From: Datnioides undecimradiatus
Taxonomy: Eukaryota > Chordata > Actinopteri > Lobotiformes > Datnioididae
DNA: 64,000 bases
Assembly: GCA_008933995.1 (NCBI GenBank)
Contig: WARS01000013.1
Coordinates: forward strand, 8,036,329-8,100,328
Direction of reading: 5' to 3'
Of the stretch, positions 12,443-36,900 are shown one piece after another; position 1 is the stretch's first letter, and each line of letters opens with the position of its first letter. Made by a program: the position numbers and the translations under genes. The notes below the pieces were generated by a model that saw nothing but the letters and a program-made list of their open reading frames with translations, ran no database searches and had not been told where the DNA came from.

Positions 12443-15400
12443 TTAAATGATGGATGTTCTCTGAGATCTGTCACCTCTGTCATCAGGGCTCTGTGATGGT
12501 CGCAGTGTGTACAAGTCTGTGAAAGTCTGAAATGCTTCTGTATTTGAAGTCCTCTTTAATTTCGCAGTAGGCAAGTCCTCTGCTGGAGTGCACAAAATTT
12601 TCAGTCTCTGTGTGGAGAAAGATAAAGTTCATTGTAATAAAATAACTTTTGCTTAATTTGCAGTAGTGCATGATTTCCCTATCATCCCCTTCTATCTCTG
12701 TAACACTTGTGTTTGCACCATCTCCAAGACTCCAAGACTGTCCTCTCACTGCATCACTAATTTCAGCAGATACCACAAACTATTTATTTACATTTGAGTG
12801 ATATAGCCCTCTGGTGGCTGCAGTCTAATTTTTGCCCATCATGAACAAAAAAGGAAACAGTTTGTTATTGCTGTGGGGCAACAGCCCGCAGAGACGTCAG
12901 TGAGGGAGGGTGTGATTGATTGGATGTTTCAACAAAACATCAGACTTGAACATGTAAAAGACTTTTTGTTTCCTATGTCTGACAGTCAGTGACCAGGTGG
13001 TTACCATAACCAAAACTAGATCCAAAACACACCACACTGGCATTGGCTTAAATAATGACCTTTACAACCTTATGTGTTCGACTGTGACTGAGGTATATAT
13101 TGTCCGTGTGTGTGTGTTTGTGTGTGTGTGAGTGTGTATTACACACAATATAGTTTATTTGTTGTCAGTATTAAAATTATGCATTTGTCTGCATCTTCAT
13201 TTTGTCTGTATATGAAATTGGACATCAGGCCTCATAAAGTGAAACCAAAATATCTTAATCACCCCCTGGTGGCTGACTGCAGTACTGCAAAAACCCAGCC
13301 TCCTTCATGTGAAGCTAAAGATTACAATTACATATCAATAAAGAATATGAATACCTTTGACATGAGTCAGGCAGGTGTATGGGTGTGACCCTCAATCTAA
13401 CACTAACAACATGTAGCTGTACCTGTCTCAGTGTTCCTGGGGTGACACACACAGCATACAGCATCCATAGAGGAACCATGAGTGTTGAAGACAGAGTGAA
13501 GAATCCTCCAATGGTGTATCCCCACCAGGGGTACTCATAAATATTGTTGAATTTGAGCGGCGTATATTTGACCAAGGAGAAGAGAAATGTGAACTAGAAA
13601 ACACACACACAGAAAAAAAGAGAGGTGGTACAAACACTGTGATGATCCAATTCTTTCACAAACATAAAAGCAAATTCACGATTGGTTGCTTGGTTTTATA
13701 TGTTTAATGCAATAAACTGAGACTCTGTTATAGCTCAACATTGCAAATAGTTGTTTGCTGACAACTTTAACCTTTAACCTCTATAACCTTTGAGTCAAAC
13801 TTGCATCCGTCGACTGGTCAAATTGTGATATTCACACGTGTGTGCAGAACAGCCTACCTGTATTTTCACTGTTTACGAGAACATAACATTAAATAATAAC
13901 ATCTTTTCTTCATGTTTCTTACTTTGCTAACATCTAATGTCCTCTTTGAGTTCTATATGATGTAATGATTTCTTGTTTTGTTGAAATATAAGTGTTTCTA
14001 TTTGTAACACCGAAAATGGTCTGAAACAAAATCAAAAAACATTTGAAAATCAGCTTTACTGTTCCTGTGCTACTGACATTATTTTTTGCCAACACAAAGC
14101 TTTGGTCTTATACAAATTCCTTATACAATTAATTCAAAATGACATTGAACAACCGTCAGTTTCAATACAACACCTTATCCATGGTACTGGTTTCCATCTG
14201 TTTGAGACATGGACAGACGCCCCTGGCAGCTGTCAGATACACTTGCTTGTTAGTACAGCATGAACAAAGTTACACGATGGGCCCACCCACTTTTCTAATA
14301 CTTACAGTACAGATAGCTGGTGTGAAGTACTGCCAACAATATTTCATAAAAGGCCATGGTCGGTAACCAATCATGTCCTGTATATTATCATACTGTCGAT
14401 CTGCACCTGATTGAAGTACGAAGTAGTCATTATCAGCATTATTGTGCACACAAAATGTAAGATAAACTTGAATTTTGCATAATATTTTGTATTTGTGTGT
14501 TACAAAACATCTCATAAAAGCTGTATTTAGTAAAAAATTCAAACCCATGACTATTTTCATCAAATTGAAATATTGTATTATACATAGTTGTGCTGTATGA
14601 TTGCAGTCAGCTTACCATAGATCCATCCAACGCAGACAGACTGAATAATAGCAAAAAGCAGGAGTGTCATCCCACTGCAGGCATAATAGTCAAACAGCTG
14701 GAAAATATAAAGGCCTCCCTGCAAATAAGAAGACCATGAAAACAAAGTTGTCATAATCCACACACTCTGTTCATCTGCTATTGTAAAACATGTACATTAT
14801 AAAGCAAATTATAAAGCATTACTATACAATAAGTAAAATCTTAACTTTCACCACTCACCTCGGTGACCATCAGGAGACCAAGAAAGAAGCTTCCAACAGA
14901 AATGGCAAGAAGAAGGAGTTTACGGCGACAGTTGTTTTGAAAGAAGGCAGGATACATGTCGGAGATGGTTGTGACCAGTGCCTCTTGATATACAAACTAT
15001 GGTGACCAAACACATTATTTTGTAAGAATACAACAGCATTGTATAAATGTGTCTAATCATAACACACTTGATACATGGTCCTACCTCACTATCTAAACCT
15101 AAGAAGACAATCATAATGAAGAAGAAAACAGCCCAGAGCTGTGGAAGTGGCATCAGAGCCACAGCGCGAGGATAAGCAATGAACGCCAAACCTGGACCTG
15201 CAAAGGTACGTGGGAAAATGGTCACATCCTTAAACAGTTCACAGCATTACAGCATTGCTCTGGGTTTCTGTAAAGCATCAGTAGCCCTTCATACCTGATT
15301 CAGCCACCATGGATATGTCCACACCTTGCTCCTTTGCCATAAAGCCCAGCACAGAAAAGATGGCAAAGCCAGCAACAAAACTGGTTAAACTGTTTAACAG

Positions 15401-18207
15401 GCACAGGTATACACAGTCTCTGTAGGTGAAATGTTAAAAAAATGTGAAAAATTAGTCAACTGGTGTTTCAGCCAAACTACAGCAGGTAGGCTGAAACAAA
15501 CAAAAGTAAGTATCAAGTCAGTGCAAATGAAATAAATACAAACCTGTAGCAGTTGTTGCTGTACTTGTTGTAACTTCCTAATGATGTAAGAACACCTGTG
15601 CAAACTCCATAGGAGTAGAAAATTTGGCTGCCAGCATCCATCCACACCTGTGGGATTAGGACGAGTTAAGGGTTGGTTTGTAAAGATGCAAAGATCCTAG
15701 AAATTAAGGCCACATACTTCTAATGAGGAAATGTTTTCAATGAAGGTAAATTCCAAGTTGCAAAACTGTGACAATGAAAGCCATGAAAAAGCATTCACAT
15801 ATGAAGTATCTTTCATACAATGTACACAATGTTGCCCAAACTGGAATGGTGGCTCTAAGGATGACATTAAGGATGTTAATATCTCACCAGCTGGAGGATA
15901 GATTGCCATTAAAATATATACATTAAGACATTCAAGGTCCCCTGAGGATACAGCTCTCTGACTTTAATCCCTAGACATTTCCTTGAGTACCAGTATGACG
16001 TTGCCATTTTTGGTTTTGAGTGAAATGTCCTAACCATCACGTCAACATTTCTTTTTATCCAGTGTGGTTTCTAAGCAAATACCTGTACAACTAATGAGAA
16101 CCTCATTGTCCATGGCTTTGTGTTTAGTGGTAATTAGCAAGCGTTTACACGGTAAACAAAGATGTTTCCATTGACCCTGCGAGTATGTTAGTATACTGAT
16201 GTTAGCATTTAGCTCAAAGCAACAGTAAGTACAGCGTCACAGATTAGCTACAGTTGTGTTTATAGTTATATTGTGGTTAAAGTTGGGGAAAGATCCTACC
16301 TCTGGATCAGTGAGGCGGGATGGGTCTGGGTAGAGGTAGAATGTGATTCCATCTTTGGCTCCTGGTAATGTTAGACCACGAACAAGCAGCACTACCAGCA
16401 TTACATATGGAAATGTGGCAGTGAAGTAAACTACCTAAAACAGAACAAACAGCTAAGTTTTGTGTCACTTTTTAAGATTAAATGTTTTATTAGAAGGATT
16501 TACATAAAATTAGACACAAATTATAAATTAACATTACGGCTGTGCTTTACCTTTCCTGTTGACTTCACTCCGTTCCAGACACAGAAGTAACACAATATCC
16601 AGGCGAGAAGAAGACAAAGGGCCAGGTCCCAACGAATATTGCCAATTTTGTCTATTCCACTGGACAAGCCCAGGATTCTCCTCCTGAAACAAATTTTATT
16701 AAAAAAAGCAATACAACAAGAAGCTGCAAACCTTATATGATGCCTCAGTTCATGCTACTTACTCCCAAAATTCTACAACTGAAGATGTGCTATTTCCATA
16801 CAGGAGCAGAGCGGCTGTTTGATTGTGACCATGCACAAAACAGGCGTCTTACATGAAAGAATAAGAGAGGTTGTGAAAAACATGAACACACTGTATACTT
16901 CATATGTGTCATAGCATCACAATTAAGTGTTGGTACCTGTGTTCCAGCTGTTGTGACAGCTGGCCCATGGAAGCACAGAACTGAAGGATGAAAACAGGTA
17001 AAGAAACGTCCAAGCCAATATGATGATATAATACACCCCAGTGTATAAGACAACCACTTGGCTACCATAGCCTAAACCTGAAGAGAGACAGAGATTTCAC
17101 ATAGTAAAATGATAGTGTTGATGGAAAGCTTCTAAAATTTCACAGATTATATTGTATAAAGAATTAAATACACTAAAGCAGCTTTAAGGAGGTTTTTTGG
17201 CCACTTGGGAGCAAAACTCAACAACAAGATGAACATCAGACACACATTTGACATGCTGTGGCCAGTACTGGAAAGGAGTTAAATTAACATGTTTGTTACT
17301 GTGAGTGACTGTTTGTGTATGCACATGATTTGATGTATCATTAATATTAATATATTATACATGTTATAAATTAGTGTCTCTTTAAGTACACAAAACTTAA
17401 CACTAACCCTAGTGGTTTTAGCTTCTTACACTGGTTTCAGCAACTACAGTCTGTGTTCATATGCAACAATCATTTCCACACAATGCTGTTTTAAATATTT
17501 TCTTGTTTTTGCAGCTGATCAAAAAGCAAACAAATAAAAAAAACCAAGCTACATTACAAAATCTTACCTTCAAAAAGAGGGCAGATCTTTCTCCAACATG
17601 TTATTCCACCCTGACTAGTGTACTGGCCCAAAGATGTCTCCAGGAAGAACAGTGGGATGCCACAGGTGAACAAAAACAACACATATGGGATGAAGAAAAC
17701 CCCTTTAAAATAAGAATTCTTGTTGTTAAAATATTGATACAACTGGATATTTTTTATTCACACTAATAATGATTTGTGAACATAAATTATTAAATCCTCC
17801 TTTAAGGACGATGGTGCTGCTGCTGCCAAAGATGTGCAACCATTTAAGTCAAGAAATCACTTTATAACAGTAATGATGGAGTTATGGGTTTTCCCCTCTG
17901 CATTAGCAATTTGTTATGCTGAAAGCCGACTATTAACTGAACACAGTCTTAAACCCTGACACAATACAACACAGCCTTTTTTTACATGATCCACACGTGG
18001 TCACAACATAAAGGATTTACCTCCTCCATTTTTGTAGCAAAGGTATGGAAACCTCCAGACATTTCCCAGACCAACAATGTGTCCGGCCACAGCAAGGATG
18101 AACTCAATCTTACTGCCCCACTGGTCCCTGTCCTCACGTTTAGGCGGTATATGTCCTGGTCTGGTCATCAGGTTTGTTTTCACCTGTGAGTTTTGTCTTT
18201 GGTCCAT
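12443..18207 (-). CDS. slc6a13-like: SLC6 Na+/Cl--dependent GABA/taurine-type transporter (GAT2-like), paralogue A
   Basis: Complete 14-exon gene, 611 aa. Coding exons in transcript order: 18207-18021, 17702-17568, 17077-16937, 16847-16763, 16683-16551, 16434-16300, 15647-15544, 15419-15295, 15197-15085, 14996-14859, 14718-14616, 14406-14306, 13593-13423, 12607-12443. All junctions are GT-AG and the frame stays open. The SLC6 fold is clear: TM1 [18 protein letters not shown] (from residue 46), TM2 [10 protein letters not shown] in TM3, two EL2 cysteines and N-glycosylation sites (N163, N172), and TM10 [17 protein letters not shown]. Chloride/sodium-site residues are kept (Q280, S284, N316, S320, D384, S385), so it should be an active plasma-membrane symporter. 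Odd points: His43 where GAT2/GAT3/BGT1 have Glu, and Thr289 in TM6. The C-terminus ends SII, a class I PDZ-type ligand. The start ATG follows an acceptor at 18217, so a 5' UTR exon lies upstream. It could instead belong to a fish-specific group such as slc6a22; substrate is inferred only. Confidence 0.94.
12806..12817 (-). promoter_or_regulatory. CTCF-like motif
   Basis: GCCCTCTGGTGG, inside the last intron of the minus-strand transporter gene. It has the same orientation as the sites near 9.33, 13.26 and 23.6 kb. Confidence 0.3.
13261..13273 (-). promoter_or_regulatory. CTCF-like motif
   Basis: ACCCCCTGGTGGC, also in the last intron of the minus-strand transporter and about 450 bp from the previous copy. 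Both are followed within about 10 bp by CTGCAG-type sequence, so the two could instead be related repeat copies. Confidence 0.3.
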
Positions 18208-18369
18208 TTCCGCCTTCTGTAAGAATTGAATTAGTGTGTGTGTGTGTTCTCAGACAGCATAAATAGGTTATCGGGTTTCTCTACCACATCAGGAAGATTT
18301 CGTTTATGAAATGAAGCATGAATGATTTCCTGAAAGGCCTACCATTCAACATTATCACTCCAAATTAAT

Positions 18370-20161
18370 AGAGGAAAATAAGAACAACCCCAGGTCAACC
18401 ACAGCTCTGTTGAGCCAACTATTCCCTCAGCTCTCAGCAGCAATGACTTTATGGATTTCTTTACTAGTAAAATCATACATATTAGAGAAAGAATTAATTA
18501 CGCGCTCCCTTCAACTGTTAGAGATCCATGTGTGTCAATTGCAGCAGCCCCTGAAATGTCTGCAGGCCCTGATTTATCTCTAGACCACTTCTCTCCTATA
18601 GATCTCACTGAACTGTCCTCAACAATTATTAGATCCAAACCCTCAATTTGTCTTTTGGACCCCATCCCAACTTGTCTTCTCAAAGATGTTTTGCCCCTGA
18701 TTGGCATTTTTATATTAGACCAGATTAACTGGTTACTAACAGGTTATGTTCCACAGGCCTCAGAGACCTGTTATCTGACCTTGCTGTCACTTTGGATGAC
18801 ATTACCCTGGCCTCCAGTTAAACCGTGAGGAACCTGGGAATCATATTTGACCAGGACATGTCCTTTCAGTCCCATATTAGGCAGGTCACTAGGACTGCCT
18901 TCTTTCAACTTGTGCAACGTAGCTAAGATTAGGAATATCCTGTCCAAAAGTGACACCAAAAAGCTAGTCCATGCATTTGTTACCTCAAGGCTTGACTACT
19001 GTAATTCCTTGTTGTCAGGTTGTCCAACTAGCTCACTGCGAAGCCTCCAGCTCATCCAAAATGCTACAGCAAGGGTTCTGATGGGAATTAGCAAGAGAAA
19101 TCATATTTCTCCAGTTTTAGCTTCTCTTCATTGTCTCCCTATAAAGTCCAGAATAGATTTTAAAGTCCTTCTTCTTACCTACAAGGTTCTTAATGGCCAA
19201 ACTCCATTGTACTTCAATGAGATGCTAAGTCCCTATTACCCCAACAGATTGCTTCGCTCCCAGAGTGCAGGTTTGCTTGTGGTTCCCAGAATTTCCAAAA
19301 GTAGAATGGGAGGCCGAGCCTTTAGCTATCAGGCTCCTCTCCTGTGGAACCAGCTGCCAGTTTGGGTCCGAGAGGCAGACACCCTCTCTACTTTTAAAGT
19401 AAAGCTTAAAACCTTCTTCTTCGACAAAGCTTACAGCTAGCTCTAGTTACCGTGCCAACTGCACCCATAGTCAAAACTACCCCTTCATGCCACCCCTTAG
19501 TTATGCTGCTATAGGCCGAGGCTGCTGGGGGACATCCCATGATCGTCTCCACACTTCTCCTTTCCCCTCTCTCTCCTCAAACTCAATTAAACCATCACAT
19601 ATTAACCATTAACTCTGTGTCCTCTCTCCCCTAGTACTGTGCTTGTATCTCTCTGGTCTCTCTCTCTGTACCTCTCTACAGATACCTGTGGCTCCAGAGC
19701 TGAACATATGATCTGTGGCTCCACAGACCTGCCCTGTGTCCTCTGCTGCCATTTATTATCATTATTCTATATTGTTCTGCAAATAGTTGCCATAGTTAGG
19801 AGTCAGTTGTTCTACCATTCTGTTAGTTTCATCTAAAGTTATGTATTCCTGTATCTCTGTCTGCGACATGGTGTATTCTCTCTCTCTCTCTCGCCCCTCC
19901 TGTCTCTCTCTATCTTTCTCTCTTTCCCCCCAACCAGTCAAGGCAGATGGCCGTCCACCTAGAGCCAGGATCTGCCCATGGTTTCTGCCTGTTAAAAGGA
20001 AGTTTTTCCTTGCCACTGTTGCCAAGTGCTTGCTCATGGTGGAACTGTTGGGTGTAATTAATAGTAATGCGTGTGGTCTAGACCCGCTCTGTTTGTAAAG
20101 TGCCCTGAGATGACTTTGGTTGTGAATTGGCGCTATATAAATAAAATTGAATTGAACTGAA
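18370..20161 (+). mobile_element. L2-clade LINE, 5'-truncated and internally deleted
   Basis: The left part (about 18,440-18,760) encodes the segment before the reverse-transcriptase core, with motifs such as FSPIDLTEL and SKPSICLLDPIPT, up to GYVPQA. The reading then jumps straight to the region after the RT core (LDDITLASS, FDQDMSFQSHI). A frame from 18,847 to 19,440 gives the C-terminal part (SRLDYCNSLLSG, LIQNATARVL, GGRAFSYQAPLLWNQLPV). The catalytic RT motifs lie in the missing piece, so this copy is dead. The 3' UTR is CT-rich and ends in the L2 tail GGCGCTATATAAATAAAATT plus TGAAT-like repeats. It sits in the presumed 5' UTR intron of the minus-strand transporter, in opposite orientation. 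The left boundary is approximate. Confidence 0.88.
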
Positions 20162-20256
20162 GTGAACATTATGAAACCAGCCTCTACACAAAAGTCCACA
20201 GCTACTGTATCGGCTTTGTGTGGCTGCACTAAGGGATAGTGGAACACCAGTATACT

Positions 20257-20302
20257 GGCATGTCACTATGATGGCATGTCACTATGAAGGCATGTCACTA
20301 TG
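20257..20302. repeat. Three-copy 16-bp tandem repeat
   Basis: GGCATGTCACTATG occurs three times at a 16-bp period with two variable bases between copies, about 95 bp beyond the L2 tail. Confidence 0.95.
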
Positions 20303-21125
20303 CTAACCTACGAATAATAATCAAGAACCTTATTTACCTTGTTTGATAAGCTTATTATCACCAAAATACAGCTCAGACTTATGAAAGTACTGGACAAATT
20401 AAATTTTCTGACCAGATAAAGGTTGGGCGATGATCAACATACTTGCTACATAACCTGAGATATAGCTGTGGTTGTGTACAGCAAGTTTCATGGCAACTCA
20501 CCAAATAGTCAAGTGAAAACTTTAATCTCATTTGGTACAAACCATATTTTCACTACGGAGACTTGATTCAAGCTTTAAAACATTTAGCTCTATTAGGATA
20601 TGCCAGGTTTTACTCATTTATACATATATTTCATATGTTAAATGTTTGACAGAAAATATTCCTCATTCAAATGAATGGGCCCAGTGTTCGCAACTTACAC
20701 ATCTCCAAACTTTTTCATGCATTTTCAGCTCTTACTGACTCATTTATACTTTTAGTCAGACACTTCTTTCAAACTTTCAAAAGTTCATGACAATCTTATA
20801 TTATTCACATTAATGTGTATTGGTAGCAGTGTTAGGGCAGAGAGGAGCTGTAAAATCTTCTAAAAGTTCTCTCAAACTTGTTCTTACACAGATTTCGCAT
20901 TCATTATTTTTACACAGAAAAATACACAGAAATATCTGCTGGTTCTACACGTGGTACTGTAGACTGATATGTTTGGAAACTGCTGCATAAACTCCAAGAT
21001 GTTTCAGAGGTGCATGTCAGCTCAAATTTCCACCTCCAATCTATGAAATTAACTTTCTGAGCCACAAGTCACAAAGCTGTGGACACAAATCTGAAAAAAA
21101 CTTATTAAAAAATTAGTGCAGTTTG

Positions 21126-21127
<2 letters not shown>

Positions 21128-21156
<29 letters not shown>
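21128..21156. repeat. (CA)n microsatellite
   Basis: About 14 CA dinucleotides without interruption. Confidence 0.97.
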
Positions 21157-21159
<3 letters not shown>

Positions 21160-21676
21160 CTTTCTGATTGTATTTCAAAAATTCAGCAAAGTATTAGTTT
21201 TGATCAACTTTGAAATCCCATTCCTTTTAATTATATACTTTTCCAACAATCTGTACCCCTTCCTCATACAATGCAGCTTGGTGTCAGCGTTGCTCCTGTT
21301 GTTGTTTTTCCTCCAAAAATTCATTGTAATAAAAAGACTAGTTAAATCAGAAACACCAAAAAGTGGCATGAATCATTGCCAGTTAAATGTAAACCTACTA
21401 AATTTGGGGTATTTTTATGATTAAATACATTTCTTTCTTTTTTTTAAAAAAAAGTGAAATGAATCAGGACACATGCCATTTATTTAAGGTTTACATGTCC
21501 TTTTCATAATATTTAACTTAATTTTTTACATTTCTTTATAAGCCCGTAAATGCAATAAAGGAAAATATCTAAATTTAACATAGGCTAATTAACATATGCT
21601 GATTTCCATGAATACCTTTACCTTTAACTTTAATATAAGTTAATATAAAGGCATTACAAAGTTAAAGTTAGCTTAC

Positions 21677-21900
21677 CTTTATCTGTTGAAGTGTTTCCTC
21701 CCCAGACAATTGTTTGCTGAAAGAAAACACCAGCTCCTTTCCAAGAATAAGTAGAGTGAAATGGGTTTCTGTGAGGAGTGGCCAACAAGACGAACCATCG
21801 AAACCAGTAGAACGAGGCACACAGACACACATACACACAGACAGTGCCACTGTCTGTTTTGACTGTTTGGCAAGATAAACCAGATAAGCACTTGGGGGTC
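21677..21900 (-). promoter_or_regulatory. Candidate 5' non-coding exon of the minus-strand SLC6 gene
   Basis: On the minus strand a strong donor (AAAG|gtaagc) ends an exon-like stretch at 21,677. The first coding exon, 3.5 kb downstream, begins with an acceptor (18,217) only nine bases before its ATG, so an upstream non-coding exon is required. This is the best candidate I see. The upstream limit and start site are guesses. There is no clear TATA box, though a CATTTAAGAG stretch reads inward near 21,930. Confidence 0.35.
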
Positions 21901-21999
21901 TGCTTTATCTCTGGGCTACACTCTTAAATGCACCAAATTTGTTTCCCTTGTTGTTCTGTGAAATACAGAGCAGACGGAGCCCGATCATATCACAAAGCA

Positions 22000-24900
22000 T
22001 CATCATTGCAGTCAAGGGTTGCATGAACCAGTAGTAACATCTGTTTTCTTTTTGGACTCAAGCTGCATTACACAGCAGTGCCACTTCATTTTTAATTAGC
22101 AATTAGTATTTTTAATCAATTCATATACACAAAATTCTGTTTAAAGACATATTTTCAACAGGACCAAAAGCATAAGATAAAAACTTTTCATCTTTCCATG
22201 TCTGATTGTCCTCAAACAAAATTAAAGCCCTACTTTTCGATATGAAATGGTCTTGTGGTATCTGTACATAAATATTGACAATTTTACATAAACATAAATA
22301 GTGGGAAAGTAGAAAACATTTTTCTGTCTTTTGAAAGAGCTTAATCATTATTACAGAAAATAAAACAAGTAAATGGTAAAACATTTGTCCACAGAGAACT
22401 GCGAATGTATATATAAATATATAGATAATAAAATATCCAGGTTTTATTCTAATCGGTCTTTAATTCAGTTGCAAGAAATTTGTTTAAAATATTGATTCTT
22501 TATATAGTAATGGAGGATAGGAGTTACAAGGGATACACAGTTTAATACACAGACTAAACAAAGCCCAATACCGTACAACAATCAAAGCAAAATGGAGTAC
22601 AAACGAAATTTATCTCCAAAAACCTTTTTGGTTGCAGTTTAACTTGCTGACATGAGAGAAAGACTTGAGAAAAGGACCTGCACTGAAACAATTACAACGG
22701 CAGAAACTGATGCCACAAAAGGGATCAGATTCCTGGTACTGTAATATACAACAATATATTAAACTTGCTGAGAGAAATATGGCTGCTTTGAGCTCTTTTG
22801 TGCCAAAAATCAGGATTCAGCTCCTAACATATACAATACGTACAAAAAATGACAGTGGCAGCAGTCTGAGAACTGCACTTGTCCATTGTTAATATTATAC
22901 CCACTGGATAACTTATACTCAGTGGGTCTGTGCTGCAGCCAGCAGGCTTGAGTTACAATAGACTTGCTGATGTAAACAACAGCAGAGTTGTTTAAAGCCT
23001 CAGCACATAATAGAAATATTCAAGAAAACAATGGCATGTTGTATGCGTAGAGCATGTAAGGACATGATGGGTGCAGGACATTTTGGTGATGGGATATGAA
23101 AACATATATACAGAGATGTAGGATGAGAGCTCACAACAGGATTCATGGCAACACTCATTTTGTGTTTAGTGAGGACAAAATGGGGAACAAATAAGAAACA
23201 AACTGCTGGTTAACCAGTTAGTTAATGAATAACTCCTGATCAAATTTTATTGCTTAGGCTATGATTTGTTAATGATTAGTTAAGACTAAACTAGTGATGA
23301 ACAAATCAGAGGTGATTTGATAATTAATGATTAATGATTAAGTACTTTGCTGATAATTCCTAATGGAGGACTAGATATTAGATAGAAGAAACACTACAGC
23401 TCATGCATGTTTACAAGGTAGAGCAGCAAATGAGAAGTAATGATTAAAATTCATCATATCAAAGTCATATCAAATTGATTCTGATTAACTGTATGTGTTT
23501 CCATAATTAATTAATACAATTTGTATTTTTAATACACTGTAATTTTATGTATTTAAAAAGGTTTATTTTACCCGTGCAACTCACTGACACAGGTAGGTGA
23601 TGCCCCCTTGTGGCCAAAGTTAGTCTTCAACTCTCAACATTAATGTAAGTGAAATTAACTAAATGAAGTTCTCCTACAACATTGTGGACATTAACATATT
23701 CAAACTAAACACAAGTACATCACATAATGTGACCACACATTATATAAAGCCCTATCTGTTTTTATAGTAAAATAGTGATTTTCAATCTTTATCAGTGGCT
23801 GTAAAGTATATAATTTAACATGAGGCATAAGGATAATAAAATAAGTGGATGTAATGAAGCATTTCTCACACTTTCTTTTATAATTGTGTTAAATCCTCAG
23901 AGTTTCAAGATGACAAGAAACCTGTTTTAGACATGATTTGCACATCCCTAATTATCACTAATCACTAATTATCACATCACTCATTATAAGGTTACTATTA
24001 AAATAACACGATAAAAAATACACAAGTTAAATTTAATGATTAGGCTACATGTATGTGTAACCCAGTTCGATGAAGAAGTAAGACTTGTCCTGTTAAAAGA
24101 CAGCCAAAGATAATTCATTAACCACTGGTTTTATAATTTGTCCAACATCTACATACTACACCCTACACACTTGTTGCAAGTTCAGCTGTCAGAAGTACAC
24201 AGACAGACATTAGCATTGAATTAAGGATAAGCATATTAACATGAAAAACACCGAAACAAACTCAGAAGCAAATCAACATGGATATCAGCCTGCAGCAGAG
24301 GAAGACAAATTGTGAGTATGCACAGGATCTGATTCCCCTTTTCATAGGTAAGATAAGGAATCTTAGTGCAGTTTCGTGGGAAGTGTGTGTGCACTATGTA
24401 ATTTATTTCATTCAGTTAAATTTCATGACAAATGATTTGAATGAAATGAAATATTAAACTTAGTAACATTGGTAAGGCTGGTTAAATGTGCTATGTGTTA
24501 TAATTAAACTGACATCACTGTCAGCTCAGACTCTGTTCACATTTTTACTTCTTAAATATTGTTTGTGCATTGAGCACAGCTGCACACTGGCAAATTTCAA
24601 ACTCAATGAGCTGCACTGGTATAATAAGGAACACAAACATTGCTCACTACAGTGTTGCAAAAGCAGGTTGTACAATTGAGTTTGAAAGTTTATTCGTAAA
24701 CAGTGAAAACTGTATTATGGTGATGTAATCTTAAACTCTATTTAGTGGCTGTTTCCATTTAAGCATTTAACCAAATGTTAAGCCTGTTAAGTATACAACC
24801 TTGTAATGTTAGTTTCATTACTGTGAATGTGAGAGAAAAAGACACATTCCTACACTATAAACACTATATGATACTATATAACATTACATGAAAACATGAC

Positions 24901-26600
24901 TGTTTAGCCTGCAGTAGAAGATGAGCTGTGACATTGCCCTGACTTCAGTGGAGAGTTTATTCCGCCTCCGTGGTCCCGTGCAGGAAAGACACTGCACTGG
25001 TTAATAGTCGGCAAGGGCCAGATGAGTTAACCTGTTGGTGAGAGGGTCAATGTAATGAACGCACAAAAAATGATTGCCTGGATCTGCAGCTCCTCTCAGC
25101 TTTACTGAGCTTTATCGGCTCACTGTTTAGCTGTCCAGCCTGTAGCTTTACTCTCACCACTCTCATAGTTTTCAGCTGGCAGCATTTTGCAAGAACCAAA
25201 CACCCACCATACACCACCTGTTCAGCACCGAGCGGCTGACAGACACAAGTTTGTGGCTAGGAGCTAGATCCTTAGCTGCTATATTAGAGACTAAAAGCAT
25301 TTTATATAGACAATAAATGTTTAACTAATAATAATCATAATGTTGCTCTGCAACTGCTGGATGTGTCAGTGAGCAGCTATTTGCCAACTAGCTTAGCATT
25401 TCAGCGTTAAAGGTAATGACGCTATATGTCAGTCTTGTGTTCACAGCCCTGTCCTCAAAGAGCCAAAAAATCATTTGACTACGCCTTGTGTACGTAAACA
25501 AACAGTTACAGTTATAAAAGGAAACAGTGTTACTACAGTGCCAGTAAAGCTCAGACTGTGGCAATGCTCCTTGTGTGTAAAAACAGGATGTTAAACACAC
25601 CACAGAGGGATTTTGTGGGCTTCACATATCGCATACATTTGTGGTATTTCACACAACGCATGTTAAAAATCATCTGTGTTGAATGTAACGAAATGTTGTA
25701 CTGGACGATGTTGAATGCTGGACCTCATTTTGCTTCTGAGGACAGAGACTGACGCAGAGGGAGGGAGAGAAAGGATCATCTTTGGTCACCAGCTGTGCCT
25801 TTGAGCCAGGAAAATTATTTTGTGTCTGTGTAGAAATGTTTCCACTCATTACTGTTAATCCACTCTGAGACCATGCAGTTTTGTAGATGTTACTTAAATA
25901 CTTCAGGGTAATTATAACTATGTGCAGTTATATTCATTTTTTTCATTTTCAGCACTGTAGTTCAATAACTTATCCATATTTTGTTGACCGGTCATTCATT
26001 TGCAATGGTATGTTATCCCTATGTAATGTCATAAAATAGAAATAGAGATCAATCTCTGCATTAATAGTCTGGAAAAAACAAAAAGCGTCATAAAGGAAAA
26101 CAGCACGTTTCAGTTAACAGTGTCGTCTTGTCCTCAGATGGCGTTTCAACCAGAGCAAGTCATAATAAACAGCAATAACAGAGCCAACTCTTCGGCTCCA
26201 CAGCTGTCAGCTCTTCAGGCCGCTGTGCAGTCACCACAGGCTTGTCTTATTAGGAGAACCATCTCCGGCCTTCATTTTGAGTCCTTTGTGGAGGATTTGA
26301 GCATTCATTTGAAAAGTCACAGGTGTGGTTAAAATTAGTCACCCTGTGTTTATCCATGCTAAGTCATGAGTTGTAACAAAGATTATAAAATGACTCACAT
26401 ATCCCACAGCTTCACTTTCTTCACTTAGCATCACAGAAATGGTCAATCCCTTTTGGACACTGGATCTGGACACTTTTTTTAAAAAATGACCTGATGCTTG
26501 TCCATGAATCATGGCTATCCATTTAATTTACTCACACTTTTCACTAGAACCCTCAGAAATATGTCTCCCATCCTCTGTGGATCGACACAGTTGCTTGGAT
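22000..26600. other. Gene-free spacer between head-to-head transporter genes
   Basis: About 4.6 kb with no recognisable gene, bounded by the two candidate 5' exons. It is AT-rich, with TTAATGATTAATGATTA-type simple sequence near 23.3 kb and a CTCF-like site at 23.6 kb. It would be expected to hold shared or separate enhancers for the two genes, but I cannot point to a specific element. Confidence 0.5.
23602..23613 (-). promoter_or_regulatory. CTCF-like motif in the divergent spacer
   Basis: GCCCCCTTGTGG is a full match to the reverse of the CCACnAGGGGGC core. It lies roughly midway between the two divergent transporter promoters. Confidence 0.4.
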
Positions 26601-26619
26601 TTTAGAGCCTGGAACAAAG

Positions 26620-27028
26620 TGGTGGACATACCAACGACCTACATTGCCACCTACAGAGCCATACTGCCGCTGTCGCCGCTGCGCAAATCCCTTCTCTTTA
26701 CTGTGCGGCCATGTGGCCACGCTCAACAGTCTCCGCCTTAAGTCGCTCATTCAGAGACGCATGTCACCCCCGCCCCCTGCTCCCTCACCCTGTCCCTACT
26801 GCTCTCTCTCTGTCTCTCTCTCTCTCCCTAATTGTCACACAAACAGAGCTCTCTCAAACCTCCACTCATGGGCTCACTGATGGTCAGAGCTGAAAAGCGC
26901 ACTTGTCCTGGGGAGACTGGGGGATCTAGACTTTTATTTTGCCCATAAAGCACCAGATGAATCCCTCCTATGGCTAAATGGAAGCATAGCACAGAGCCAG
27001 ACTACTGACGTGAAGCGATCTCTCTCAG
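26620..27028 (+). promoter_or_regulatory. Candidate promoter and 5' non-coding exon of the plus-strand SLC6 gene
   Basis: This stretch is GC-richer than its surroundings, with several CpGs and CCCCGCCCCC near 26,767, followed by a CT-rich tract. A CRE-like TGACGTGA lies at 27,006-27,013. A consensus-like donor (CTCAG|gtactc) follows at 27,028. The first coding exon of the plus-strand transporter starts at an acceptor (30,914) only four bases before its ATG, so a non-coding exon must exist upstream. The start site is not located. Confidence 0.35.
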
Positions 27029-28104
27029 GTACTCTTTACCAAACCCTTTCCCGTAAGGTCACAAGCAGTTTTTTTATGTCTTTATCTTTTTTTCTTTCTA
27101 TAAATTGTATATTTGCACTGGCGCGGTTTACTGTCTTGAACAGGAAATAAGCGGTGTCTTTGCAGTTTAGTGACAGCTGGGCTTTTGTGGTTGCACTTAT
27201 GCTTGGCGCTTGTAGCTGTTTTATGTAGGCCAAAGGTTACCGGCTGTGCTGTAGCGAGAGCAGCTATTTCCCTTGTTTAGTGGAGCACCTCAGACCGCCG
27301 TTGTTGCAGATTATTCGAGCAGATTGCAACATGACACACCGTTTGTATTTTGATTCAAAATTTACTCTGACAAAATTGGACTAACACTACCTGAATCAGT
27401 TTCTTGCTATGATGTGTTTGGAAAATACAAAGTTCTCAATTTTGCAATTATATTGACACCTGAAAGCAAAACAGCTCTTCATTTTTATATACAGTAGTGA
27501 AACAGAGTGGACTTAATAAATATTATCATTAATGTGTTTATATTCATGATATGTCTGAGAAAGAAAACTATTCACCACTGAGTCCATGCTTCAATAAAAG
27601 AAAAAAGAAAAACAGAAGTCACCAACAATTATTCCTTATACTGCGAAGTTTCTCAACTATTAGTTACATGTTGAACAAAAATATCATCTGAGATATTTTT
27701 GAAAAACCACCACAAGCTCTTGATAGATGTTTTTTTTTTTTTTTAAATTTTGCCACATTTTACTGTAACTTTCCACCAGATTGCTCAAGGTTTTGTGATG
27801 GCCCAGTCAATTTTATTTATATCACCCTACATCCCAATGTACCTTAATAGACTTTAATGAGCAGCTTGGATGATCTGATAGGTGCAGTAAGGACTTGTTT
27901 TCCTGTGATCACCTCGTCCCCCATGAATTGCATTCCAGTGCAACTAATCTGTGATACCATATCTGCTCCACAAGCATCAGGCAGACTAAATATTTTCCCA
28001 TGTTTTTTAGGCTGCTCATAATACTGGGCTTTTCTGTCTAGTGATCAACAGTGGAGCACTACTTTTTAGCTACATTAGAAGTGTCACTGTAAAACCCGCA
28101 GTGC

Positions 28105-28105
28105 C

Positions 28106-28140
<35 letters not shown>
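28105..28140. repeat. (CTGT)n microsatellite
   Basis: Eight to nine CTGT units ending in TTGT. The frame read through it is an artefact. Confidence 0.97.
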
Positions 28141-28510
28141 TTATCAGTTCTGGTGGAGCATTAATATCAGAGCAGCAGTTTATTTCTATGAAATTTTGGA
28201 CAAGAGCTGATATTTCCCAGCAGATGAGTCCTGCAGACTTGGGCAATCTGCTGATTTTCTTATCTTGTGCCCCAAGCAGGTCAAATATTTTTTCATGTCC
28301 TGTACTTTCTTATAGTCATTGTGAGCACTTTGATGTTTTCATTTAGCACAACTTTACCAAAGTACTGCCTTACATGTCCATACTCAATACCTATTTCAAG
28401 CAGAGAGTGTGCTCACTAAAAGTAAAAAACTAAAATAAATACTAACTGCTAAAACAGTATATCTTATAAATATATAGTTAATACTGCAGTCAATTAGTTT
28501 TGTTAATACT

Positions 28511-28640
28511 GCTTGCTCACAGTGGGAATTGTTGGGTGCATTTAAAGAGTTTGGTCTAGACCTGCTCTTTGTGTTAACTGTCCTGATTTAACCTCTGGTA
28601 TGATTTTGCACTATACAAATAAAATTGATTTGAATTGAAC
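28511..28640 (+). mobile_element. L2 LINE 3'-end remnant
   Basis: It aligns by eye with the 3' end of the L2 copy at 20,026-20,158: GCTTGCTCA, GTTGGGTG, GGTCTAGACC, then a degraded GCACTATACAAATAAAATTG and GAATTGAACTGA. Only the tail survives. A still shorter L2-type tail in the opposite orientation (TCAATTTTATTTATAT) begins near 27,807. Confidence 0.8.
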
Positions 28641-29719
28641 TGACTGTCAAGGTTTTGTGCAGTAATGCTCACTGGACATTTAGATAAAACTGCACAAGGA
28701 TATACCCTTCATTGCATGGAGCAGCTTCAGTATAGAAGACTACCATAGCCATTAATCTAAGGTCGATTAAAATGTGTTATTTTTACAGCTTTTATGGTAG
28801 TCTGGGCAAAAATGTGTTTTTAGACGTTTGCCTTTCTGTGTTTATTTGTTCATAAGTGGCATAAGGACAGTATGCAGCTCTGTCCTATTAGAGGACAACA
28901 ATGTCACCATTTAGAGGACATTAGAAGACTCAGTAGATCATAGGGTTCAAACCCTGTTGAGCTGAACACCTAAACTTTGAGGATATCATCCAACTCTGAA
29001 TCACTGTATTGCTCTATGTTTGTTGTGAATCTCCCACCTTTTAACATTCAAATCAAATTCCTCCAAACTGCTCCTCTTGCTGATCCTGTTTCACTCTGAG
29101 ATACAACACAATATGGAGGCAACATACTCTCAAAGTCAGAGGTATCTTAAAGAGATCAAGCACTAAATACTTGATGATGATGCAATAGTGGGCATCTTTA
29201 GATGAAATTGGTCTTCTCAGATGCAAAAACTACAACCCAGATATCAAATGTTGAAAAAATGATAAGATTAGAAAAGTATAACAGCGTAAAGTCTATATCA
29301 TCTTAAACCCAGGGGTTAAGCTCTGAATCAAAACTTCTTTTGAATCTTTTAGCTGTTCTGAAAACTCTCATGGAAATGAACCATTAACCACATCTATTAC
29401 TAAGGTTCTGCAAGTCCAGGTCACTAAAAAGGTGACATGATCAAAACCCAAGGGTAACTGACTGATAAACTCATATTCAAGGTTCATCTCAGTGGCATCA
29501 CCAAGGCTGATTTTTTAGCTCAGAAAGGTCTCCACAATCAGAGGCTCTTACACAAACTGACTCCTGAGAAAGTGACTCAGAGTTCATGCAATTTTCACAA
29601 GCAGGCAAAGTTACTGAAACTGCCTGTTTATTTGTCTTCAAACAACCAATCCATCACAACCTATAGAGTTCAAAATCTCCCATAACTCAGCTGATCTGGT
29701 ACTAATAAGGACCAAAAAG

Positions 29720-29885
29720 ATCAGTCGGTATAACGCCAGTCCTCTGCAACCTTCACTTGTTGCCTTTTGCTCTCAAAATTCATTTAAAATCCACCTTTTA
29801 ATTTGCAAAGCACTTTCTGGTCGAGCTCCACAGTTCATTTCAGACATGCTTTCAGTATATTTAACCAGTCGCTCTTTGACATGGT
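29720..29885 (+). mobile_element. Decayed L2/CR1-like RT C-terminal fragment
   Basis: One frame reads as a worn version of the segment after the RT core of L2 elements: a QNSFKIHLLICKALSGRAP-like run followed by ISDML and ending near SRSL. This matches the order of FKVLLLTYKVLNGQ..EMLSPYYP..LLRS in the copy at 18.8-19.4 kb. It is too degraded for firm assignment. Confidence 0.4.
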
Positions 29886-30918
29886 GTTCAACAGTTATGC
29901 TACACTTACTGCTACTCCAAACTATCCATTCTGTTTATTTGAATAACCATCTGTGACAGGGTTGTTATTCGAAGGCTTATCATACATACATGTGTACATT
30001 TCTATAAATCCAAAATATTTAACATTTTTCATGTCCACTAGAGTTTAGTCTCCAGGCTGTATTAGCATAATTCATTGTAGATATATCATATCGGCATACA
30101 AGTTGGCCACGTAACAGATAATAACAGAAAGCCAAAATAGGTTTGCTGTCATTGAGAAACTGGTGCCAGTTTACACATTGAGGTTTTTTTAAAGTGATAA
30201 ATGGAAAGATTGTTTATGTATGCTGTTTGTGAAATACCACCATCACTCCTGAAGATCAGTGTCAGTCTGGATCATAGCTATATATTAGTATCCGTCAGGC
30301 TTTAGTTGCCACTCGTCAAACTAGCTGTTCACCAGTGTTGAACTTTATCTAATTTCGTGTTGTTCTTGTTTTAAAATACCACTCAACTGCTGTTGATACC
30401 ACACCCTCTGCTGAGCGTCATCATCACAAAAAACACCAAGGAAAGTCCTTTTGAGATTCTCAGGATTTGAATCTTTTTAACAGTAATGTAGTGGCACACA
30501 TATTTTCCAGGCTATTTGCTTCACCCCCTCATCAAATCCAAGGCAGCGACACAAAAGCAACATTGATGGAAGCATTATCCTCATGCCAAGCAGCACTGAC
30601 CCTCTGTTGACCCAATACAGCCATACTGCTGGCATTGTGCGGACTTTGAACATTGATATACACCAATTAAATCATGTCAATATTACTGTGGTGGTTAGTG
30701 ATTATGTCATTTACACAGCACTGAGATGTGAAATACTGAGAATGTGCTCTTAAGTCACCATTTGTTACTGCAAAACAAAATCCACAAACAACATGAATAG
30801 TTAGAACTAGTAAAAAAGCACAACATAGTTTTAAAGAAATTACATGATTTGTTTTTGGACAGGAATGCAGAATTTACTGCCATCTTCATCATGATCACAT
30901 TTCTGCTGTTGCAGTGTG

Positions 30919-33900
30919 ATGGATGAGCCTTTTGGTCCAGAGGTCAAGCTCAGGCTGGATGTGAGCACAGCCCATCCTGTACCCACCACCCCTAGCAGAG
31001 GACAGTGGTCAAGCAAAATTGAGTTCCTCTTGGCTGTCGCAGGACAAATCATTGGCCTGGGAAATGTGTGGAGGTTCCCGTACCTGTGCTACAAAAACGG
31101 AGGAGGTGAGTTTTAATTATATGAAAAGGAATTAGGATCAACAGTGAAAGAAGCAGCTACTTTCTTCAGTTGTACATATGCAGAAGTTATAAAACAGCTT
31201 AAATATTTAAGATTGAAAGCTGCAACAACAAGTATAAAATAATGTTTACCTGTGTATTTTCAGCAGCAATCTCTATTCAGGACGACTGTGTAAATATTAC
31301 CTTGATTTTAGGGTCAAGATTTACCACTCCCAACTGTGTGCAATCAAGAAACCACAAGCAAATAGACAAAACGCAACTAAATAAAGAAAACATCTGCACC
31401 ACTGTGATGAGACATATATTGCATTTACGAAAATAAAAAAAGACAAAAAAAACCCACTGCAAGTAACTAAACTTTACTATCTTTCACAACACCTGTGGAA
31501 AGGAGGACATGGAAACTCTAGCCCCCTAAAATGCTGCAATTACAGAAAACACAAGAATAAACAGATAAACTTCAGATTGAAAGCAGACCTACAGAAGCCG
31601 ACCACTGCTAGACTCCTGAAGCTAAGCTTGAAATTGAGCTAATAATCTTTACTTTAGTTTTTGTATTTTTAGTTAGTTTATGAGTCCGACCTTGTTGGAG
31701 ATTAGATGTAGGTTCACTTTTATTGATTATTGAACGTACAAGCAACATACGTGGTGTGTCTTTCCGTTTTCCTCAGGGGTGTTCTTCATCCCCTATGTGC
31801 TCTTCCTCTTCACCTGCGGGATCCCCCTGTTTCTCCTGGAGACGTCTCTGGGCCAGTACACCAAGCAGGGAAGCATAACCTGCTGGAAGAAAATCTGTCC
31901 CCTTTTTCAAGGTAAAGATCTAGAGGTACTTGCAGAGCACCTATGTGAAATCAGACAAAAATGTGCAATTAAATGAGAAAGTTATGCACAACATCAAGAT
32001 TTCTACATTTTCTGCAGGGAATTTAGGACAAAGCATGCGTACACACCCATCAAGAAATCTAATATTACAGACACAGTTTATGTGTGTGCAGTCTGTATTT
32101 GAAATCAGTCCACAGAGCAGGGATTTCAGTTTGAGATGAACATTTGCCACGAATGATGAAGTGAATTCTCACCACTCAGTTTGTGTTTTTGTGCTCTGCT
32201 ATGACATAAAAATAGCCTCATTAGGGAAGACAGCATGGATTCAATCATAGTAGTGTAGTGATCACTTTGATTTCAATACAAAATACAGTCTGCACCTTGT
32301 TTTAAATGTGTCACTACATGTTTTACACAAGTCTGGACAGAAATAGATTTAACTGCAACTTGACTGCCTATTCTAGTTTATGTTTATCATGCCTGTTGCT
32401 CAGACTCTTTTGCAGCGAAGGTATTAAAAATAAAACTCGCTCTTCCAGTTTCACACCATCTTCCCAATGAAGCCCAGCAGATATGAGTCAGGTTTGGTGA
32501 ACTAATCCTTCACCCATAATAAACTGGAGATTCGTCTTCAACTTAGCTCCTGTTGCTTAAACATTGCCTCCTGTCAGCTATCAAATCTGTGCAAATGATT
32601 TACAAAAATCCCATTCTTGTGTAAACCTGCACTCAAGCACACTGTTTAGTAAATCAACTACAGTAGAGAAATTATCCTTTACTGATCAGTCTGTCTCTAT
32701 ACAACCTAAAGCATATTATTTGAGACAGATGTCAGAATTACATTATTAGAATATTTAATTAATAATTGAATGCTTGTCATTCTGCCATGTAATGCTACAG
32801 AATAATGACACCCTCCCTATTTAGATTGGTTCTCTGTGTTCGCCACCCGGTATGATCTCCAGGGAAAAATCTCCTCCTCCTGCTTTGATGTCTCAATTAG
32901 ACATCACTTGAAGTTATTTAGTCTTTAGACTAAATAAATGAATGAAATCACACTTTTTTCCTAATGCTTTCTTCCCTGACGAACCAGATGCGAACCCCTG
33001 CTGCAGTTACTCAAACTCAATATAAAATGATTACATGCATCTTTCATCTCTCTTGCCCTAATGTGTTGTAGATAGTGTCTTCATAGAAAGTCTGGAACAA
33101 ATACAATGAGTCCCAGGTTGTTGCTGGTTGCTTGATTTTGAGGAGAATGGAAACAATCTGGTTGCCTTTGCGACAGGGGTGAAAACAATGACAACTCTAA
33201 AAGCCTTTTAATTTTGTGTATAAAGAAGGGACTGGGTTTCCTTTGTGAAAAAAAAATACTATAATAAGATAAGACATTAATGTTAATGGTTTCCTTTCTC
33301 AGTACATTTTAGTCAATTCAAAAATCTGGTAGTATTTCATTTTAAGTGCATTAATTGATGTCTTATTTCATGCATTTTATATCATATTCAAATGAGGGTA
33401 ACATACCTTTGGAAATTGATGGTTTATAAACATTTAGTTACTACAATATTTTACTTTTACCTATACTTAAATTTTTGGTATATCATTTTTATATATTATA
33501 TATTATAGTATAGTATTAGTTCACTAATATTTTCAGTGTTTCTTATTAGTTTGTATTTAACTCTAAATTATTTTAGAATTAGTTGCACAGTTTGGGACCT
33601 TAATTTACTCCAGAACTACATGACGACCATAATTAGATGCTGTTTACTTGAAAATGTTGTGCTTGTAATGGAAAGACTTCTTGTTTGTCTGTTTCAGGGA
33701 TTGGTTATGGAAGTCAGGTGGTTGTTTTATACTCCAGTATCTATTACATCATCATATTGGCCTGGGCTTTCCTCTATCTCTTCTTCTCTTTCAAATCTGA
33801 ACTTCCCTGGGCGAGTTGCAGAAACAGCTGGAACACAGGTAAGACTTAGGGTGTGATCTGACTGAACAAACACATGTGGAAACAATCAGTAATGTTACGA

Positions 33901-36900
33901 ATCTGAGATAAAACAATGACACATTGCCGCTGTACAAAGTTGAGGCAAATCATAATGTTACTGGCTGATTGTTTCCCTTCCAGCGTCCCTCCCTTCCAGG
34001 CTCTATTGTACTAGGTACTACTGGCTGCTTTAAGAATTAATCAGATTTTGGGCTTATTTGAGAGTCTGGTTTTGGATGTTGAGTGCAAAATCCAGTTGCT
34101 GGAAACATTTCAGGTCCTGAGTTGCCAGGTTTTTTTTGTCTTGTTTCTTTGGCTTGATGTTCAATTCAAGTTACATAACATACACAAAGCCAGACAAAAT
34201 ATGAGTAACAACTTGTCGTGTCTGATGTGGCTTTTCCACAAAATGGTTCTTATATTGTCAAATACTGTCCAGCAGCATTATGAAACATGCTTTTCTGCTT
34301 CTGACGTCAGGTCAACACAAGTGATTGGCAGTGCATGAACAGTGCTAGCAAACTCTTCCCAGGGTTCCTCTCTCCAGCTCTTACTCGTGTTTCTACAGCC
34401 ATCTTCCTGCAACAGAGCACTCTCACAACTGTCACCAGATTTCAGAGCAAGACCTCTCCTCTGCCTCATAATGTTGGCAGTAAATATTAAGTAATTAATT
34501 GATTAATACCAACCTGAGCATCAGTCAGTGAGGCAAACACTTTCAGTGGGCGAACAATGATGGGGCAAAATTGCCCTACACAGTTCTATTGCAGCCTGTT
34601 TCCTGACTAACCACTCACTCAATACTGGACCACACATTAGTAGTCAGCAGTCATTCAGACCCCAGAACATGGGAAAATATTGCCCAGTTTGTTAAAACAA
34701 CTACAAAAGTTCCCCTTTAAACTTGGATTTTTTGATGAATATAGAGAAACATTCCTCCTTCAAATACCAGAAAATAATTAAATAATAATTGATCCAAATT
34801 CCAGGGTAGGGAGAGCTATAATCCCACTGAAGGTCTAATGTGCTCTCTCCACCAGGGGCATCAGTTGAGTTGAAGTTGGCCTCCATTTTGATCCCAAACG
34901 CATTCCTGTAACATTTCATGACTGCACCTCCACAGGAATATAACCACTCATAAAACGATTTAAAACTGCTTCTGTGTGGTGTCAGTTTCTGTGTGATGTC
35001 TTGTCTAAAATGTCCTGTCTTTCTTGTCCTCAGAGACCTGTGTAGAGTTTGATCATAGGGGTGATTATTTGAACTGGACTGCAGCTGAAAATGCAACATC
35101 ACCAGTGAGGGAGTTTTGGGAGTAAGTGCGAATCAAAAATTCAAATATGACACTAATCTCGGAAAGTGACATTTATACATTATAATTGAAAAATTATATA
35201 ATTGATTTTTTGCAGGAGGAGAATTTTGAATGTCACAGGAAGTGTCAATGAGTTAGGGGGCATACGGTGGGAGCTGGCACTGTGTCTTCTCTTGTCCTGG
35301 GTCATTTGTTACTTTTGTGTCTGGAAGGGAGTGAAGTCCACAGGGAAGGTAGGACAAGAGCTTTTTTTTATGTTGTATTCAAAGTGTCAGAGAAACTCTT
35401 AAACTGTTGAAGTACAGCAGATTAAGAATGAGGTAACAATATCTTTGGCAGATGATCTCTTCTACTACGCAAACACTCCATTATGAACTCAATTATCACC
35501 CCTGACAAGATGCACTGTCACTGCAGTGCAATTGCAGATTTGGAACATGCTGTGCTTGCACAAAGTTTATGTGTCAAGTATTAAAGAAATGCTCACTGAA
35601 AGAACTGTGCGTCAGAGAGACATGACATGGGACCTGAGCTAATTGTTACAGTACTGAAAACATAATATTGAAACCAGGTGTCATAGTTTACTTTTTCATC
35701 CATGCTAGAGAAGTGGCTCCAGTGATGGAAATGTCTGTCTGAGAGCAACTTCACAATGTTGGTCCTGACTGAAATATCTCAACCACGGTTAAATCAATTG
35801 CCATTATATTTGGGCACATTTTTGTGGCGGCCAAAGAATAAATTCTAATTAGTGTGATGATTTTCTTACTCTTCTTCTTACGTTTTGGGTTAAATATCTA
35901 CATTTGGATGGATTACCATGGTATCTGGTGCAAACTTCCATGATCCTTTAACTTAAAGATGACTGCCACTGACATTGCCACCTGCGTCAGCTATCCTTTG
36001 TGGTTTGTGCTATTAAGCAAAGGATACGAGTAAATACAAAGAGGAAACATAGATAAACCAGTCACTTCTGGAGTTGGTATGACTATGGCCACACAACATC
36101 CATTCTGTCGTCACAGCCATCAGTGTCCACAGTTTTGCAGCAAATAAACCACCACCATGGCTCTTTCACAGGTAGTTTACTTTACTGCCACATTTCCATA
36201 TCTGATGCTGATGGTGTTGCTTGTTCGTGGACTCACTTTGCCTGGGGCATTAGATGGGATCAAGTTCTACCTCTACCCAGATCCATCCCGCCTCACTGAC
36301 CCACAGGTATGAGCAGATTTCTATGTCTCAGTCTTCATAGACCCGTGAAAAGTTTTTTTTCGTGGAAAAAAGTATCAGTTACTTATACATGGTTTTAAAT
36401 GGTGTGAGGATTTTCACTCTAACTGACGTCTGTGTGAGGTCGATGTCGGGTTAAACATTAAATAATATTCATAAGGTGGTTCTGTAGAGATCCACTGCAA
36501 AGTTGGAACACAAGGTGAAAGCTTTTCATATGTAATTTATTGCGGATAAAAACGTGTCCTTTTCATGTATTGCAGGTGTGGATGGATGCTGGCACACAAA
36601 TATTTTATTCCTATGCAATTTGCATTGGGTGTCTAACTGCACTTGGCAGTTATAATAAATACAACAATAACTGTTACAAGTAAGTTTTGTTTAATTTATC
36701 TGATGCATTTTTCATTCTGGATGCCATAGATATACATTCAAACAGAGACCTTTCACCAACAAACAGCTTTAGGAGCCCAGTGAAAGAATTATAACATTTT
36801 TGTTATCTGTCATTTAGAAGTAAATTTCAAAATACAGCTCAGGGACTTCCGTCAGAGTGTAGCTGGTTCTGTGCATCACGGCTGCGACACATAAGACCTT

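Follow-up and report, generated by a model that had tools for sequence, protein, structure and literature searches.

A 64-kb stretch of the genome of the fish Datnioides undecimradiatus (assembly GCA_008933995.1, contig WARS01000013.1, positions 8,036,329 to 8,100,328 of the forward strand), which is the whole of the DNA analysed here and is called the window, holds two complete genes of the SLC6 family that adjoin head to head and whose substrate pockets have been remodelled, partly in common and partly in a manner that splits the two members. Gene A lies on the minus strand (12443..18207) and encodes 611 residues, and gene B lies on the plus strand (30919..39900) and encodes 594 residues. 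Both were spliced by hand from the genomic sequence into 14 coding exons, and all 13 coding introns of A, like all 13 of B, have a GT donor and an AG acceptor. The start codon and the first transmembrane segment (TM1) share one exon in each gene, 18021..18207 (-) in A and 30919..31105 (+) in B; the outer limits that an earlier note on this DNA had given to its observation, 18021 and 31105, are the ends of these two exons. A scan of the window with the TM1 pattern, in which up to three mismatches were permitted, gave two matches, 18043-18072 (-) and 31054-31083 (+), each with 0 mismatches (maximum in 100 control shuffles, 0). This agrees with the earlier observation that the two proteins have this stretch in common. 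The 15 best PDB sequences for A and for B are all chains of GAT3, BGT1, TauT, CT1 or GAT1 (E 1.6e-177 or better), the closest being BGT1 (840 bits) and GAT3 (839 bits) for A and GAT3 (868 bits) for B. Judged by sequence likeness, the placement of both proteins among the Na+/Cl--dependent SLC6 transporters, in the GABA/osmolyte branch, is secure.

Some sequences lying 5' of the two genes could belong to them. Gene B has a candidate coding exon further upstream (24241..24311, +), with an ATG, a GTGAGT donor and a frame that fits the acceptor ending at 30914; it may lengthen the N terminus of B by 25 residues, in which case Gln43 would become Gln68. On the other side, a stretch at 21680-21790 (-) with a terminal GTAAGC donor, read by eye, is a possible 5' non-coding exon of gene A. 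The 5' region of A also contains, at 18829-19437 (+), an open stretch of 203 codons that resembles by eye the 3' part of a reverse transcriptase of LINE type and for which no Pfam match was obtained.

At the column of GAT1 Tyr60 (GAT1 numbering is used throughout the pocket comparison), the spliced models carry His43 in A (codon CAC, 18079..18081, -) and Gln43 in B (codon CAA, 31045..31047, +), as the earlier note had read them; it had placed the residue four before the GLGN motif, whereas it is the third before the first Gly. The residues that it had given for known transporters hold as well, with Glu in GAT3 and BGT1 (PDB chains), Glu48 in GAT2 (PMC11242302, Table 3) and Gly in TauT, while the PDB chains of GAT1 and CT1 have Tyr and Phe. 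In the same way, its statement that this column lines the pocket is borne out by the literature, which puts the column in the floor of the substrate site (S1) and ties it to subtype selectivity (PMC10137170, PMC11242302). Bacterial SLC6 relatives fetched with the TM1 exon all have Ser at this column (37/37). Thus, His and Gln at column 60 lie outside every compared sequence, namely six references and 37 bacterial relatives. The latter come mainly from Omnitrophota and Desulfobacterales, and one of them (L001) has the same stretch of 11 residues as the fish proteins. The search with the TM1 exon found no stray fish DNA in bacterial genomes or viral contigs, the 22 pattern matches in viral contigs including 0 confirmed ones.

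The change reaches much of the substrate site, beyond the single column first flagged. The references used to examine it were GAT1, GAT3, BGT1, TauT and CT1, from PDB chains taken as human, and a provisional GAT2 sequence. In TM3, column 136 holds a small polar residue, Thr120 in A (17040..17042, -) and Ser120 in B (33733..33735, +), where GAT3, BGT1, TauT and GAT1 have Leu and CT1 has Cys. At the extracellular gate, column 294 is Tyr in both proteins (Tyr283 of A, 15615..15617, -; Tyr284 of B, 36606..36608, +), with Phe in the five PDB references and in 34/34 of the bacterial relatives long enough to align. In TM8, column 397 is Glu in both, encoded by a GAG that is the final codon of its exon (Glu386 of A, 15085..15087, -; Glu387 of B, 37476..37478, +), with Gln in the same five references. 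The remaining changed columns separate A from B. Column 297 is Gly in A and Ala in B (Gly in GAT1; Ala in GAT3, BGT1, TauT and CT1), and column 300 is Thr289 in A (15597..15599, -) and Ile290 in B (36624..36626, +), with Gln299 in BGT1 and Leu in GAT3, TauT, GAT1 and CT1. Column 400 is Tyr389 in A (14988..14990, -) and Gly390 in B (38121..38123, +), with Cys in GAT3 and BGT1, Glu406 in TauT, Thr in GAT1 and Gly in CT1. Leu136 and Phe294 have been listed among the residues that show full conservation across the GAT subfamily, and it has been proposed that differences in the pocket floor, at columns 60, 297, 300 and 400, could be key to selectivity (PMC10137170).

Other parts of the site are unchanged in A and B, namely columns 63, 64, 65, 69, 140, 295 and 396. 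The side-chain columns that we take to be the Na1, Na2 and Cl- ligands are all kept in both proteins (Asn66, Ser295, Asn327, Asp395, Ser396, Tyr86, Gln291 and Ser331), and the same is true for Arg69, Tyr140 and the gate Asp451.

Pocket change was compared with overall divergence over a shared core alignment of 367 columns. The S1 set comprised 11 columns, that is, the 12 columns of Table 3 of PMC11242302 minus Asp451, which lies outside the shared stretch, and the 356 others served as background. Residues unseen in the six references occupy 5/11 S1 columns of A against 43/356 others (p 0.008), and 4/11 S1 columns of B against 41/356 others (p 0.034). When one reference was dropped per run, p ranged from 0.003 to 0.017 for A and from 0.014 to 0.055 for B. 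The same comparison of each reference with the other five gave 0-3 novel residues at the 11 S1 columns and enrichment in 0/6 (p 0.31 to 1). Four of the 11 S1 columns are novel in both A and B, a number that random sets drawn from the whole core reach in 0.8%. Furthermore, among the 153 columns invariant in the six references, A departs at 8 and B at 7; the six that are changed in both (56, 128, 137, 294, 397 and 401) all lie in TM1, TM3, TM6 and TM8, which hold 57 of the 153. Finally, A and B mismatch each other at five of the 11 S1 columns (60, 136, 297, 300 and 400) against 67/356 others (p 0.044), while the 15 pairs of references mismatch at 0-4 of the 11.

The two copies are old and under purifying selection, because the ratio of nonsynonymous to synonymous divergence (dN/dS) between them, computed by three methods, is 0.10-0.15 at dS 1.2-1.8 (dN 0.18-0.19). 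Their identity is 75% in BLASTP (436/583) and 80% over the 367 shared columns, over which each shares 69-73% with BGT1 and the provisional GAT2. A FastTree phylogeny with the references joins A and B as sister sequences (local support 1.000); support is weak (0.110 and 0.732) for the branches that set the pair among GAT2/BGT1 and GAT3/TauT. The higher A-B identity (80% against 69-73% to GAT2 or BGT1) speaks against A and B being themselves the SLC6A13/SLC6A12 pair of fish, no fish SLC6A12 or SLC6A13 sequence having been part of this comparison.

The gene pair has a probable counterpart in the literature. A reconstruction of the ancestor of Clupeocephala gives the gene order Gene1-Gene12-(Rh2)n-Gene13, where Gene1 is SLC6A13 and Gene12 its duplicated inverted copy (PMC5686071). 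Other papers place an SLC6A13-like gene and SYNPR beside RH2 (PMC3116502), list SLC6A22.2, RH2, SLC6A22.1 and SYNPR in a row (PMC8294118) or report that medaka has an additional GAT-2 gene, on LG6 (PMC3849432). Since an inverted SLC6A13 duplicate beside RH2 is thus described, A and B are probably this duplicate, slc6a22.1/slc6a22.2, and probably already annotated as such. The likeness seen is one of arrangement: in the teleost pair as in the window, two SLC6A13-like genes are neighbours and one is inverted, which fits A on the minus and B on the plus strand. A point against this identification is that neither a handful of motifs nor tblastn with a provisional rhodopsin query (best E 0.99) located an RH2 opsin in the 64-kb window, although the opsin may lie outside; the assignment to the Rh2 locus rests therefore on the gene pair, its orientation and the papers. 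As for function, no transport assay of slc6a22-type fish genes was found in the literature searched, as judged mostly from titles and abstract openings, and the accessible parts of PMC8294118, PMC12181344 and PMC7730343 report no transport for slc6a22. The pocket signature itself is not described in the accessible parts of the slc6a22 literature found. A GABA transporter 2-like transcript, which is not assigned to A or B, drops in the liver of tongue sole at low salinity (PMC6006554).

Beyond gene B, the window carries an FKBP5-like (FKBP51) gene at about 49.1-55.6 kb (49107-55566, -). Its C-terminal TPR exon matches an FKBP51 chain with 104 bits and the best FKBP4 chain with 84, and its other exons were located by tblastn with a provisional FKBP51 query. 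A codon-usage scan outside A and B yielded seven stretches, two of them FKBP5-like; when five stretches were submitted to Pfam, the FKBP5-like one matched TPR models below the curated cut-offs and four had no match.

Taken together, A and B may carry different cargoes, because their pockets differ from those of the six compared relatives at several key positions. The reading that we favour, to which we give roughly even odds (about 0.5), is that they are an old pair of working Na+/Cl- symporters, nearest to GAT2, whose pocket would have been rebuilt around a glutamate of TM8 and of which each copy would prefer different substrates. The rebuilding would have preceded the split, with loss of the TM1 Glu, replacement of Leu136 by Thr or Ser, change of the gate Phe294 to Tyr and change of the TM8 Gln397 to Glu; the two copies would also have come to differ mutually, at columns 60, 136, 297, 300 and 400. 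On a parsimonious path through inferred ancestral codons, which takes few base changes, column 60 would have gone from GAA to CAA and then, in A, from CAA to CAC, and column 397 from CAG to GAG. In the resulting pocket, the acidic end of the substrate would still be received by Na1, by the unwound part of TM1 and by the retained Tyr of TM3, while its amino or other cationic end would meet the TM8 glutamate and not a TM1 glutamate as in GAT2, GAT3 and BGT1. Each copy would then have its own preferred substrates among small molecules resembling osmolytes or GABA.

Published work on relatives gives this arrangement some precedent. In rat GAT1, Gln397 is in contact with a GABA-bound water between TM3 and TM8 (PMC10352132), so a Glu at that column would be expected to face the pocket. 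In TauT, docking brings Glu406 to the amine of the substrate, and the addition of a TM1 Glu (G57E) lowers taurine uptake by 99.8% (PMC11242302). In the light of these data on Gly57 and Glu406, a single pocket acid, on TM1 or on TM8, is a pattern of GAT2, GAT3, BGT1 and TauT; GAT1 and CT1 have no acid at either of these columns. A and B fit the TM8-acid version of this pattern, at a different column, and their logic would thus be that of TauT (Gly57 in TM1, Glu406 in TM8) with the acid three columns earlier.

Several points weigh against the proposal of a pocket rebuilt around TM8. When the background is limited to TM1, TM3, TM6 and TM8, whose ranges are approximate, the enrichment of novel residues is borderline (p 0.053 for A, 0.067 for B), and random sets from these segments reach four columns novel in both in 5.6% (permutation 0.056); adding columns 295, 396 and 397 to the S1 set gives p 0.045 (A) and 0.042 (B), an addition made only after the change at 397 was known. 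The six references include no fish protein, and the changes in A and B could partly be general fish changes. The GAT2 sequence in the alignment is provisional. The structural argument is also open to another reading, as the water of rat GAT1 is held by Gln397 and Thr400 near the carboxylate of GABA, where a cation has been suggested (PMC10352132). This disfavours a contact between Glu and the amine, except where the substrate binds in the reverse orientation or is joined by an additional cation, and the Glu at 397 may instead hold such a cation or alter coupling. The TM8 acid of TauT seems helpful and not essential, since Glu406Cys loses 49% of taurine uptake and raises GABA affinity (PMC11242302). 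In BGT1, the half-maximal inhibitory concentration of GABA is 25 μM for E52A, 18 μM for the wild type and 1.2 μM for E52Y (PMC8476755, Table 2); GABA potency is hardly altered in E52A, and the TM1 change alone therefore predicts little, while a change of Glu52 does alter inhibitor binding (PMC8476755; also PMC11587516).

The earlier note had argued from column 60 to a changed and separate substrate preference in the two paralogues. The latter part is strengthened, as they differ there and at four more of the 11 pocket columns; the former need not follow from loss of this Glu alone, given BGT1 E52A, and the stronger case lies in the combined changes, including Gln397 to Glu. We give a changed preference odds that are even or slightly above, and regard a separate preference of A and B as plausible. 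A bolder version would see in A and B two further pocket types of the GABA/osmolyte branch, in which the TM8 Glu reads the cationic end of the substrate or holds an extra cation next to its acidic end, and which would carry one or two solutes poorly carried by the six known members, for example a fish osmolyte or a guanidino compound, with preferences divided between the copies; this is put forward as a doubtful extension.

The alternative that survives best, and that must be granted a real if lesser chance, is that A and B are ordinary GAT2-type carriers, in which the pocket changes are tolerated, uptake of GABA, beta-alanine and taurine is GAT2-like and the pair differs mainly in its site of expression. 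Such a view would agree with the position of A and B nearest to GAT2, GAT3 and BGT1 and with BGT1 E52A and E52Y, which keep or raise apparent GABA affinity, and a stickleback transcriptome study calls slc6a22.1 a GABA transporter, apparently by annotation (PMC12181344). It accounts less well for changes that hit Leu136 and Phe294, for which full conservation within the GAT subfamily has been reported (PMC10137170), for the gain of an acid on TM8, and for pocket novelty that is enriched in A and B but in 0/6 references.

Relaxed constraint after the duplication, with drift of the pocket and no selection for a new preference, could explain why A and B are unlike at 5/11 pocket columns. It is an improbable explanation, given the overall dN/dS of 0.10-0.15, the retention of the ion and gate residues except Phe294, and the presence in both copies of the same residues at columns 397 (Glu) and 294 (Tyr) despite a dS of 1.2-1.8, which suggests that these two residues have been held over a long divergence. 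More improbable still is that the proteins are leaks or sensors with an SLC6 fold, and not transporters of organic solutes: substitutions of GAT1 Tyr60 do impair transport and give a cation leak (PMC10352132, PMC10137170), but the tested ion-site side chains and the TM3 Tyr140 are kept in A and B. An artefact of the gene models or assembly, which might be suspected because in A and in B the codon of the Gln397-to-Glu change lies directly next to a splice donor, is scarcely credible when it does so at the same exon position in both and when each model is complete and has 13 coding introns with GT/AG ends.

The pocket residues of the GABA branch help to choose between GABA, betaine, taurine and creatine. 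A pair that is 80% identical and has more pocket mismatches than any of the 15 reference pairs can thus be regarded as a natural experiment on selectivity residues, and work on A and B would assign a role to fish genes for which the literature found, as far as its accessible parts go, offers no more than annotation.

Among known systems, GAT2, GAT3 and BGT1 resemble A and B in overall sequence (68-73% over the 367 columns, with the provisional GAT2), in the ion sites and in the gate Arg and Tyr. In GAT2, GAT3 and BGT1, column 60 is Glu, column 136 Leu, column 294 Phe, column 300 Leu (Gln in BGT1) and column 400 Cys (PMC11242302, Table 3), and in GAT3 and BGT1 column 397 is Gln; A and B agree with them at none of these six columns. 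By the 12 gate and S1 residues of GAT2 in the same table, A is unlike at 6/12 and B at 5/12: Glu48, Leu125, Phe288, Leu294 and Cys394 are lost in both and Ala291 in A only, with no change at the Arg, Tyr, Asp and Gly-Leu-Gly columns. A plain orthology of A and B to GAT2 was rejected on these differences. In the same way, the BGT1 pocket (Glu52, Gln299) is replaced by His/Gln and Thr/Ile in A/B. CT1 (61-63% over shared columns) shares with both proteins a residue other than Leu at column 136 (Cys144) and with B the Gly at column 400, but it differs by Phe at column 60, a Phe gate and Gln at 397. TauT (67% over shared columns) is unlike A and B in having Gln at 397 and Glu406 at the Thr400 column, where A/B carry Tyr/Gly, and its Gly57 is matched by His/Gln. 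Like them, it lacks a TM1 Glu and carries its pocket acid on TM8, which in A and B stands at the 397 column instead.

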